NCBI GenBank assembly: GCA_015488935.1
Contig: WFMU01000038.1
Coordinates: forward strand, 1 to 13,028
Length of the DNA stretch: 13,028 nt
Direction of reading: 5' to 3'
Source of the DNA: Flavobacteriaceae bacterium
GTDB taxonomy: Bacteria > Bacteroidota > Bacteroidia > Flavobacteriales > Flavobacteriaceae
Positions 1 to 1,612 of the stretch are shown here, piece by piece; the stretch's first letter is position 1; the number at the start of each line of letters is the position of its first letter. A program made the position numbers and the translations under genes. The notes below the pieces were generated by a model that had not been told where the DNA came from, made no database searches, and saw only the letters and a list, made by a program, of their open reading frames with translations.

Positions 1-85
1 AAAGAAACACCAAAATATAAGCAACCAGCAAAATGGCTATTGCTATAAAGTATATAAAATATTTTTTTTCTTCTAATTGATACAT
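1..85 (-). CDS. batB: BatB (von Willebrand factor A membrane protein), N-terminal fragment, cut by window edge
   Basis: Only the first 28 codons are in the window. They read MYQLEEKKYF followed by a strongly hydrophobic stretch (about residues 10-28) that would be the first membrane segment. Flavobacterial BatB proteins begin in this way (MYQLEEK, then a membrane helix), and the gene lies directly after batA on the same strand, which is the usual Bat order. The full protein is expected to carry a periplasm- or cytoplasm-facing vWA domain between membrane helices and to work with BatA in the MoxR/Bat envelope complex; none of that domain is visible here. The start codon is fixed by the conserved MYQLEE sequence. 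The gene is separated from batA by an inserted 496-bp cassette, so co-transcription with batA may be altered. The assignment rests on the N-terminus and context. Confidence 0.8.
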   Translation of the reverse strand, partial: MYQLEEKKYFIYFIAIAILLVAYILVFL

Positions 86-135
86 TTCTGTTGTTCTTTA
101 ACCGTAAGGATTTCTGTTATTTTTTAACCGCAAAG
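84..135. repeat. Imperfect 26-bp tandem repeat at the batB/cassette junction
   Basis: Copy one is 84-109 and copy two is 110-135. They agree at 22 of 26 positions and all four differences are transitions. Copy one includes the last two bases of the batB start codon triplet (on the opposite strand). Copy two runs into the left inverted repeat of the GxxExxY cassette, so both copies contain a version of the cassette end (TTAACCGTAAGG and TTAACCGCAAAG). Confidence 0.8.
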
Positions 136-155
136 GGCGCAAAGCTTTCGCTAAG
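123..155 (+). repeat. Left arm of 33-bp perfect inverted repeat flanking the GxxExxY gene
   Basis: This 33-bp stretch is the exact reverse complement of 586-618. It begins TTTAACCGCAAAGGG and contains CGCAAAG twice at a 9-bp spacing (129-135 and 138-144). Its inner part, GCGCAAAGCTTTCGC, is itself a near-palindrome around AAAGCTTT with one extra C. Beyond 155 identity breaks down, though a short further match occurs at 158-160. Confidence 0.95.
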
Positions 156-182
156 GTCGCTATGGTTTGTTTTTTCTCGGTT

Positions 183-560
183 TTATAAATTATTTACTAC
201 TCGTTTTATTCCATTTTTTATTAATGTTACATTAAAATTTATTAGCATTCCTAATTTACAATTTGATAGTTTTATATAAGTCAATAATTGAGTTAAATGT
301 ACATCGTTTAACATTTCTACCGCTTTTAATTCTATAATCACTTTATCTTCAACTATTAAATCTAATCTATAACCAATATCTAACTTTACATTTTCATATA
401 CTAGTGGTAATCCTTTTTGTTTTTCTACCTTTAATCCTGTTTTTTTTAATTCATAAAATAGACATTCCTCATAAGCATTTTCTAATAACCCTGGACCTAA
501 AGCTCGATGTACTTTTAGAGCACAATCAAATATAACTTTTGATATTTCATTTTCTGTCAT
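183..560 (-). CDS. GxxExxY family protein (PD-(D/E)XK nuclease-like)
   Basis: The 125-residue product has the hallmark motif GLLENAY at residues 24-30 (G24, E27, Y30), the length usual for the family, and a PD-(D/E)XK-like core: D67 in YRLDLIV, then E77 and K79 in IIELKAV. A conserved QLLTYIK follows at 91-97. There is no signal peptide or membrane segment, so it should be cytoplasmic. The fold suggests nucleic-acid cleavage or binding, but no biological role is established for this family to my knowledge. It is the only gene inside the 33-bp inverted repeat and is transcribed in the same direction as batA and batB. The start at 560 leaves the conserved N-terminal helix (ISKVIFDCALKVHRALGPG) complete; an ATG ten bases upstream is out of frame. 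Family call is confident, function is unknown. Confidence 0.93.
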   Translation of the reverse strand: MTENEISKVIFDCALKVHRALGPGLLENAYEECLFYELKKTGLKVEKQKGLPLVYENVKLDIGYRLDLIVEDKVIIELKAVEMLNDVHLTQLLTYIKLSNCKLGMLINFNVTLIKNGIKRVVNNL

Positions 561-585
561 TGCTTTTCATTTTTTTCTTTGCGCT

Positions 586-618
586 CTTAGCGAAAGCTTT
601 GCGCCCTTTGCGGTTAAA
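586..618 (-). repeat. Right arm of 33-bp perfect inverted repeat; carries the batA stop codon
   Basis: This is the exact reverse complement of 123-155. Its outer end overlaps the last bases of batA: the batA stop codon (TAA, 614-616 on the minus strand) is formed by bases of the repeat itself (GTTTAACCGCAAAG). Confidence 0.95.
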
Positions 619-1612
619 CAAAACCTCTAAAAACCGTAAATCGCAAAAGCATTTCAAACAGTATTAAAAATCCTGCTAGTAATACAAAAGGTCTAAACAT
701 TTCTTCGAAATTGGTATATTTAAATTCTTCTATTTTTGTTTTTTCTAATTTATTTATCTCCTCATATATTTTTGTTAGTTTACTATTATTAGTTGCTCTA
801 AAATATTTTCCATCGGTTTCTTTTGCTATATATTTTAGTAATTTTTCGTCAATTTCTACTGGTGCATTTCTAAAAATAAGTTTACCATCCATTCCTTTTG
901 CGACAGGAAACATTGCAGTTCCGTTTGTTCCTAATCCAATAGTATATACTTTTATATTTAGGGCTTTTGCCAATTCGGTAGCTGTTTTTGGATCTACAGA
1001 ACCTGTATTATTTACGCCATCTGTTAATAAAATAATGACTTTAGATTTTGCTTTACTTTCTTTTAATCTATTTACTGCAGAGCCTAATCCCATTCCAATG
1101 GCAGTACCGCCGTCTAATTGTCCCCAACGCAATCTTCGAATGGTATTTTTTACAATTCGTTTATCGCTTGTTATTGGTGTTTGGGTGTAACTTTCTCCAG
1201 CATATACTACCAATCCTATTCTATCGTTGGGTCTTTTATCAATAAAATTACTTGCTACTTTTTTAAGTGCTTCTAATCGGTTTGGTTTTAAATCTTTGGC
1301 TAACATACTTGCCGAAACATCTATTGCCATTACAATATCAATTCCTTTGTTCGATTTTGTTTTTGTAGTTACTTCTTTGTTTCTTGGTCTTGCTAAAGCA
1401 ATAATTAACGAGCTAATTGCTAGTAATCGAAGTAAGTACAATAGAGGTTTTAGTTTCGATAATATACTTCCTGATCCAAAAGATTTTGTATTCGGAAATG
1501 AAATCGTTGCGTTTTCTTTTTTGGACGTAAAAAAATGCCATAGTGCTATGATTGGTACTAATACCAACAACCATAATAATTCTGGATTTGCAAATTCAAA
1601 TTTACTTAGCAT
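614..1612 (-). CDS. batA: BatA, von Willebrand factor A membrane protein
   Basis: The 332-residue product has two membrane segments near the N-terminus (about 13-29 and 55-75), a vWA domain from about 90 to 285, and a C-terminal membrane segment (about 307-326). The metal-binding MIDAS residues are intact: D98, S100 and S102 in AIDVSASM, T170 in DGGT, and D198 in LLTDG. In characterised Bat systems (for example aerotolerance genes of Bacteroides) these proteins form envelope complexes with BatB; the exact job is not settled. The ATG overlaps the end of the upstream gene by 11 bp, which indicates translational coupling within the moxR-bat operon. The gene ends inside the inverted repeat of the inserted cassette, yet the C-terminus (LLRFTVFRGFV) looks full length, so the insertion seems to have replaced the stop region without damaging the protein. 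Confidence 0.93.
   Translation of the reverse strand: MLSKFEFANPELLWLLVLVPIIALWHFFTSKKENATISFPNTKSFGSGSILSKLKPLLYLLRLLAISSLIIALARPRNKEVTTKTKSNKGIDIVMAIDVSASMLAKDLKPNRLEALKKVASNFIDKRPNDRIGLVVYAGESYTQTPITSDKRIVKNTIRRLRWGQLDGGTAIGMGLGSAVNRLKESKAKSKVIILLTDGVNNTGSVDPKTATELAKALNIKVYTIGLGTNGTAMFPVAKGMDGKLIFRNAPVEIDEKLLKYIAKETDGKYFRATNNSKLTKIYEEINKLEKTKIEEFKYTNFEEMFRPFVLLAGFLILFEMLLRFTVFRGFV

Follow-up and report, generated by a model that had tools for sequence, protein, structure and literature searches.

Excerpts of the reports on REPtrons, i.e., systems of repetitive extragenic palindromic (REP) sequences and a REP-associated tyrosine transposase (RAYT), describe a single enzyme gene next to palindromic repeats or flanked by them, inverted doublets without a gene (REPINs) that are dispersed in extragenic space, and co-evolution of enzyme and repeats (PMC8266576, PMC3116915, PMC3733652). 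The current study deals with a similar element in a window of 13,028 nucleotides (the whole stretch of DNA analyzed; contig WFMU01000038.1 of the Flavobacteriaceae bacterium assembly GCA_015488935.1), where a small GxxExxY gene framed by inverted arms is inserted between batA and batB. This cassette is probably the gene-bearing member of a REPtron-like two-part repeat system with an unrelated enzyme, which would bind and cut the repeats, bring about their mobilization and be expressed by read-through. The likeness to the excerpted REPIN-RAYT descriptions lies in the enzyme gene with its repeats and in the dispersed gene-less inverted doublets in extragenic DNA. Unlike in REPtrons, the enzyme belongs to the PD-(D/E)XK type and is not an HUH/Y1 transposase, and the arms are arrays of units of about 7 bp; the window arms end in TTTAACC and contain neither a GTAG nor a CGTC tag.

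The GxxExxY gene (positions 183-560, minus strand, 125 aa) is alone between the arms, without a companion gene in the element. The downstream arm, located 3' of the gene, spans 123-155 on the plus strand, and the upstream arm, located 5' of the gene, spans 586-618 on the minus strand and is its perfect reverse complement (33/33 identical positions), compared with a longest perfect inverted repeat of 18 by chance in 300 mononucleotide shuffles of window positions 1-700. The description of this framing in the first-pass annotation, i.e., perfect 33-bp arms around a GxxExxY gene between batA and batB, is thus correct. If mismatches are allowed, the arms extend to 120-160 and 581-621 (41 nt, 93%). 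Internally, each consists of near-identical units in the arrangement CGCAAAG-GG-CGCAAAG-CTTT-CGCTAAG, which lie at 129-135, 138-144 and 149-155 in the downstream arm and at 606-612, 597-603 and 586-592 in the upstream arm; a fourth CGCAAAG unit of the latter (577-583, minus strand) is positioned immediately 5' of the gene.

The encoded protein matches TIGR04256 (GxxExxY) with 151 bits (cut-off 35) and PF13366 (PDDEXK_3) with 145 bits (cut-off 22). In an alignment of 216 homologues, residues E27, D67, E77, K79, Q91 and Y95 are conserved at 99-100%, and the conserved E, D, ExK and QxxxY residues of the PD-(D/E)XK superfamily are present. Family membership and an AlphaFold model with a predicted local distance difference test score (pLDDT) of 95.4 indicate a putative single-domain Cas4/Hjc-like PD-(D/E)XK nuclease with a restriction-endonuclease-like fold, which supports the earlier view of a nuclease-family gene packaged inside its own inverted repeats. 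R2 chains were among the weak Foldseek matches of this model; a previous model built on a shallow alignment (pLDDT 72.9) had no fold match worth considering, and a search of solved structures by sequence returned three RelE chains at an E value of about 0.3, which were dismissed as not meaningful. Cas4 carries four cysteines for an iron-sulphur cluster. Unlike Cas4, and likewise Hjc and lambda exonuclease, the GxxExxY protein is 125 aa long, has no cysteine in any invariant or nearly invariant column of 63 GxxExxY sequences, and comes with repeat arms of its own. Two other PD-(D/E)XK-type nucleases that serve mobile DNA, TnsA of Tn7 and the R2 endonuclease, work with a partner, a DDE transposase or reverse transcriptase, whereas the GxxExxY nuclease is the sole gene of its element. 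The family comprises at least 8,000 non-redundant sequences from several phyla.

The framing of GxxExxY genes by arms is widespread. It was investigated in a first set of loci, i.e., the best 80 of more than 545 close relatives with their flanks, and in a second set of 140 loci with the highest-scoring matches in 296 Bacteroidota genomes, 152 of which contained the gene in up to 12 copies; both sets favor strong family members, and the resulting 216 distinct genes are accordingly the best-scoring ones and not a random draw. In the first set, unit arrays were concentrated within 250 bp of the gene and faced inward, with 69 forward arrays upstream in 76 loci versus 19 in the other orientation and 79 reverse arrays downstream in 78 loci versus 8, and beyond 500 bp at most 3 arrays were found per strand and 250-bp bin. 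Typical units are about 7 bp long, e.g., CGCAAAG, CACAGAG and similar ones (consensus C-R-C-N-R-R-G), and neighboring units most often start 9-10 bp apart, which is near one DNA turn. At least two chained units on both sides were present in 142 of the 216 distinct genes (controls: 23 with reversed flanks, 31 on the opposite strand), and at least three in 74 (controls: 1 and 11). In a motif-free test, 153 of 210 genes had an inverted flank similarity no lower than the 99th percentile of dinucleotide shuffles; the medians were 20 for inverted, 12 for direct and 10 for shuffled comparisons. The same repeat family thus stands beside other GxxExxY genes at most loci examined, as the first-pass annotation had proposed to check. 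Tandem or inverted copies of an apparent GxxExxY 3' end plus arm were observed beside the gene in L315 (1900-2323) and L320 (1844-2208), as if truncated 3' gene copies had been added repeatedly, and L328 contains several tandem 71-bp units with CACGGATA and GCGGATTTTT motifs beside its GxxExxY gene (1048-1393).

The two arms of a locus also agree in their variable letters. Across 74 loci, the agreement was strong for unit position 2 (G or A; rho 0.90, and 0.90 with GC removed) and for unit position 5 (A or G; rho 0.86, and 0.75 with GC removed). Letters of the spacers between the units were shared by both arms in 238 of 431 cases versus a mean of 36% for mismatched arms, and spacer lengths agreed in 84% versus 49% (131 loci). 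Agreement of spacers is not needed for unit recognition. Units and spacers together therefore suggest that the arms of one locus are kept alike, by pairing, copying or conversion. Because more than chance similarity between same-locus arms is found throughout the family, a recent insertion, one of the two readings of perfect arm identity offered in the first-pass annotation, does not have to be assumed, and homogenization or pairing of arms may be the rule. The unit letters track the protein lineage more than the genome: the distinction between CGC and CAC units required 9 changes on the protein tree, compared with a mean of 39 and a minimum of 31 after shuffling (n=128; FastTree, few columns), and the nearest protein of another family had the same label in 59 of 74 rows with a known family code, compared with a majority baseline of 53%. 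Both types occur in 9 of the 12 genomes with more than one typed gene, and the nearest protein elsewhere is of the same type for 19 of the 24 rows from these genomes. Protein residues 122, 89, 62 and 12 show the greatest differences between CGC and CAC lineages, without correction for ancestry. Deamination is an unlikely source of the CGC/CAC alternation, with CACAAAG occurring 132 times in arms and the mirror product TGCAAAG 11 times.

Arms without a gene are dispersed in the same genomes. A search with the 33-bp arm in the genome of the window located three places outside the window with one mismatch each, and this genome harbors a gene-less hairpin of two inward-facing arms (L005) as well as additional arm copies (L003, L004). 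In the 296 genomes, the pattern CGCAAAG-N1-4-CGCAAAG reached up to 101 occurrences in a single genome, versus at most 3 for the reversed control; three or more matches were found in 59 of 152 gene-carrying genomes but in just 1 of 144 gene-less ones, and the corresponding CACAGAG pattern gave 42 of 152 versus 1 of 144 (reversed control at most 8). If both patterns are summed, the proportions are 84/152 with and 3/144 without the gene, counts that include the gene-flanking arms and ignore kinship, many of the gene-less genomes being from one family. Within 260 kb from two Flavobacterium genomes (regions chosen around matches; genome code g36 was assigned to Flavobacterium from a G255 locus identical to F. 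glaciei L071), all 42 arrays were intergenic though 83% of the DNA is coding, and neighboring array pairs were inward-facing in 13 cases, tandem in 7 and outward-facing in none. Copy numbers differ strongly within the genus of the window: two CGC-type queries returned 27 and 37 repeat-only matches in G003, 4 and 5 in the window's own genome, 1 and 1 in G005, and none in G001, G002 and G004, where CAC-type copies could escape these queries. G005 contains an orthologue of the L005 hairpin at the same position, with a majority of CAC rather than CGC units in each arm; this is a single case, and two other G005 copies detected with the CGC query are of the CGC type, so that G005 is not uniformly CAC. 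Folding of the L005 hairpin is more stable than expected (z -3.3). The only match to a known RNA family (E 0.21) was under its gathering score. In G162 and G228, the 22 and 17 CACAGAG array matches, respectively, are all on one strand, which suggests long direct tandem arrays.

The comparison with relatives revealed empty sites. BatA was found in 39 of 40 genomes including that of the window, and 30 batA-batB junctions including its own were read, three of which are filled. In G005 (BatA 93% identical), the GxxExxY gene is cut short after about 47 codons and the arms are mostly of the CAC type; the proteins nearest to this remnant have CAC arms, and two lineages therefore seem to have occupied one batA-batB junction. 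G003 (BatA about 84%) contains an intact GxxExxY gene that is 88% identical, plus an additional hairpin. The other 27 junctions gave no GxxExxY match below an E value of 0.2, and empty ones occur even in the same genus (G001, G002 and G004, i.e., three of its six genomes). The notion of a gene fixed at this locus with a repeat found nowhere else, by which the first-pass annotation would have stood corrected, fails because of these empty junctions and the occurrence of the repeat elsewhere.

Turnover is also evident at three further junctions. At the first one, some Flavobacterium species have a gene-bearing element, eight others that were read have a gene-less hairpin of about 60 bp and of another subtype, and G510 has a third kind. 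The second one (L212) is filled, cleanly empty (G335), or occupied by single arms or other hairpins. In G505 it has TTAACCA followed by GTCATTGCGAGGAACGAGGCAATCTC, apparently a different repeat type (L353), and in other Flavobacterium genomes (L363, L364, L366 and L368) it holds CTAAGTTGCTAAGATTCTAAG-type hairpins, possibly another repeat class at the same site. At the third one, the flanks of G255 and G457 are 82-88% alike, the GxxExxY genes are identical in 42 of 120 positions, and the arms differ, those of G457 being of the CACGAATT type.

Such sites, at which gene-less hairpins of several kinds share junctions with gene-bearing elements and one junction carries very different GxxExxY genes in two species, would be expected if junctions exchange cassettes, and they speak for the arms belonging to another mobile or host repeat, with the GxxExxY gene as a passenger spread by homologous recombination between repeats. 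This explanation is nevertheless unlikely, since the arm letters go with the protein lineage and vary among paralogues within one genome, the repeats are nearly confined to gene-carrying genomes, and none of 20 Y1 transposase loci from repeat-rich genomes had such arms.

The position of the elements relative to their neighbors allows for a regulatory explanation, in which the arms serve as an autoregulatory operator or, as an mRNA stem, set the cassette apart from its operon, the dispersed copies are terminators or a regulon, and nothing moves. The arms are located near the gene and near stop codons of neighbors (at a distance of no more than 15 bp in 83 of 130 cases), 98 of 112 loci with both neighbors known are fully co-directional, and the L005 hairpin folds well, all of which would fit. 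However, the base rate of co-directional junctions is already 112/191 (41/56 for short genes), and empty junctions, site turnover and the strong copy number differences between congeneric genomes are unexpected for fixed operators, which makes a purely regulatory role quite improbable.

The repeats might also be REP sequences moved by RAYT-like transposases of the IS200/IS605 type. Y1_Tnp matches are indeed common in Bacteroidota (209/296 genomes), and three or more repeats were present in 77 of 130 genomes with both genes, but also in 7 of 22 with GxxExxY only, compared with 3 of 79 with Y1 only and 0 of 65 with neither. Moreover, the genome of the window lacks a Y1_Tnp match (assembly 83% complete), and two-sided unit arrays were absent from all 20 Y1 loci inspected in 13 repeat-rich genomes; several of these loci have other inverted repeats. 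Y1 mobilization as the sole cause is thereby largely refuted and hardly credible, while Y1 enzymes may have a helper role in repeat spread. Y1_Tnp genes with their own unrelated inverted repeats were noted at L391 and L393, both in genomes rich in GxxExxY repeats. Equally far-fetched is a defense or restriction nuclease whose arrays mark self, an idea suggested by the PD-(D/E)XK fold and opposed by the weak PADLOC match (E 0.005, 13.6 bits), the housekeeping neighbors and the absence of a companion gene from the element.

Beyond Bacteroidota chromosomes, a query with the window protein matched 8 of 72,556 plasmid records and no phage record, and 11 pattern matches in viral contigs included no confirmed relative; a GxxExxY protein has been reported for the algal virus Chrysochromulina parva virus BQ1 in an excerpted source (PMC12085832). 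Seven of the eight plasmid loci were read (a Prevotella locus was left out), three of them from Bacteroidota. Inward-facing arrays were detected by motif in Bacteroides and in the alphaproteobacterium Sphingomonas, whose downstream array falls within the 3' end of the annotated gene, and Gemmatirosa (Gemmatimonadota) has a complete CGCAGAG hairpin on each side of a frameshifted gene. Looser matching motifs on both sides were recognized by eye only in Bernardetia and Treponema, the Fusobacteria copy has direct repeats, and the Persicobacter locus showed none. Annotated neighbors were housekeeping genes, i.e., batA/batB in the window and fabD/fabG, ade and radA in three plasmid records. On these few loci, the link between gene and arms appears to reach beyond Bacteroidota.

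In the favored scenario of a two-part repeat system, the GxxExxY nuclease would recognize arrays with letters of its own type, probably in the form of folded hairpins or inverted arrays, and cut at or beside them, whereupon host repair or recombination would create, move or rewrite arrays. Gene-less hairpins would accumulate in intergenic DNA, while the gene would stay at low copy number and be expressed by read-through from the upstream neighbor. A more far-reaching and still tentative proposal is that GxxExxY proteins represent an unrecognized class of repeat-mobilizing enzymes, namely solitary PD-(D/E)XK nucleases that read arrays of 7-bp units via a code of the letters at unit positions 2 and 5, bear their own inverted arms and seed intergenic gene-less hairpins, with a change of specificity causing the letters of old hairpins to change accordingly (a pattern found a single time, at the L005 site, with CGC in G000 and mostly CAC in G005).

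Several observations weigh against the scenario of a two-part repeat system. No transposition event was seen, and of the 40 matches in eight genomes, the 30 loci that were fetched showed no near-identical dispersed gene copies but tandem duplicates only. Movement of the gene itself, as in the minimal mobile unit suggested earlier, was thus not evident; the multiplied part is the gene-less repeat, as in REPIN/RAYT. No clear target duplication was seen either. The commonest outer arm end is TTAAC (84/259 arms), duplication-like outer ends occur at 27 of 124 loci versus a shuffled maximum of 26, and because TTAA is palindromic, its duplication is indistinguishable from a terminal repeat, so that these ends are ambiguous; among 86 loci with non-palindromic outer tetramers, 2 looked duplicated and 12 inverted. 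The two-sided unit criterion was passed by 142 of the 216 genes and therefore failed by about one third (74), and direct-orientation flank similarity was also above the shuffle threshold in 66 of 210 genes, some of them with tandem copies. The label of the nearest protein agrees in about 80% of cases and not completely, and the dominant dispersed repeat type follows the sampled gene arms weakly (rho 0.33, p 0.02, 51 genomes). Three gene-less genomes (G062, G175 and G194) have three or more repeats, in counts not corrected for relatedness, and among gene-carrying genomes repeats are commoner in the presence of a Y1 transposase. Finally, the gene-less hairpin L283 folds weakly (z -1.7; 14 of 200 shuffles as good), and evidence outside Bacteroidota is thin, with two-sided arrays by motif in three of the seven plasmid loci.

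Short gene-less inverted-repeat elements in intergenic regions of a Bacteroidota genome are known from the BrickBuilt miniature inverted-repeat transposable elements of Porphyromonas gingivalis, whose ends were compared with those of the IS5 family in the part of the report consulted (PMC4596501). The current repeats differ in that no transposase was found whose ends match them, and the gene that does match codes for a protein of a nuclease family. In the open-access literature, with longer result lists covered in part, neither these repeats nor a link between them and GxxExxY were found to be described; the principle of an enzyme gene with dispersed cognate hairpins has precedent, and none was found there for the enzyme class, the repeat design and the code. 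Through these observations, a very common family whose annotation consists of a sequence motif alone gains a context, and a class of intergenic repeats of the CGCAAAG/CACAGAG type gains an owner. If the scenario is true, an unrelated nuclease has invented the REPIN/RAYT arrangement independently, and its protein-DNA specificity code is visible and open to in vitro testing.

With respect to the surroundings of the cassette, batA (614-1612, minus strand; PF07584 BatA and VWA domains) is the upstream co-directional neighbor, and its stop codon TAA (614-616, minus strand) is provided by the outer arm end TTTAACC. The downstream co-directional neighbor is batB, whose 5' end occupies positions 1-85 of the minus strand (start codon at 83-85; paralogue rows beside BatA). 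Between batB and the downstream arm, a decayed copy of the arm end, TTTAACCGTAAGG (97-109, plus strand), belongs to the direct repeat D1 (84-107/110-133, 88%) and was compared with the G005 junction; it is probably what is left of an older arm, or else a local duplication. At the other end of the window, an open reading frame that leaves the contig end (12103-13026) has a weak Arm-DNA-bind_5 domain (4e-5) and probably encodes a tyrosine-recombinase integrase.
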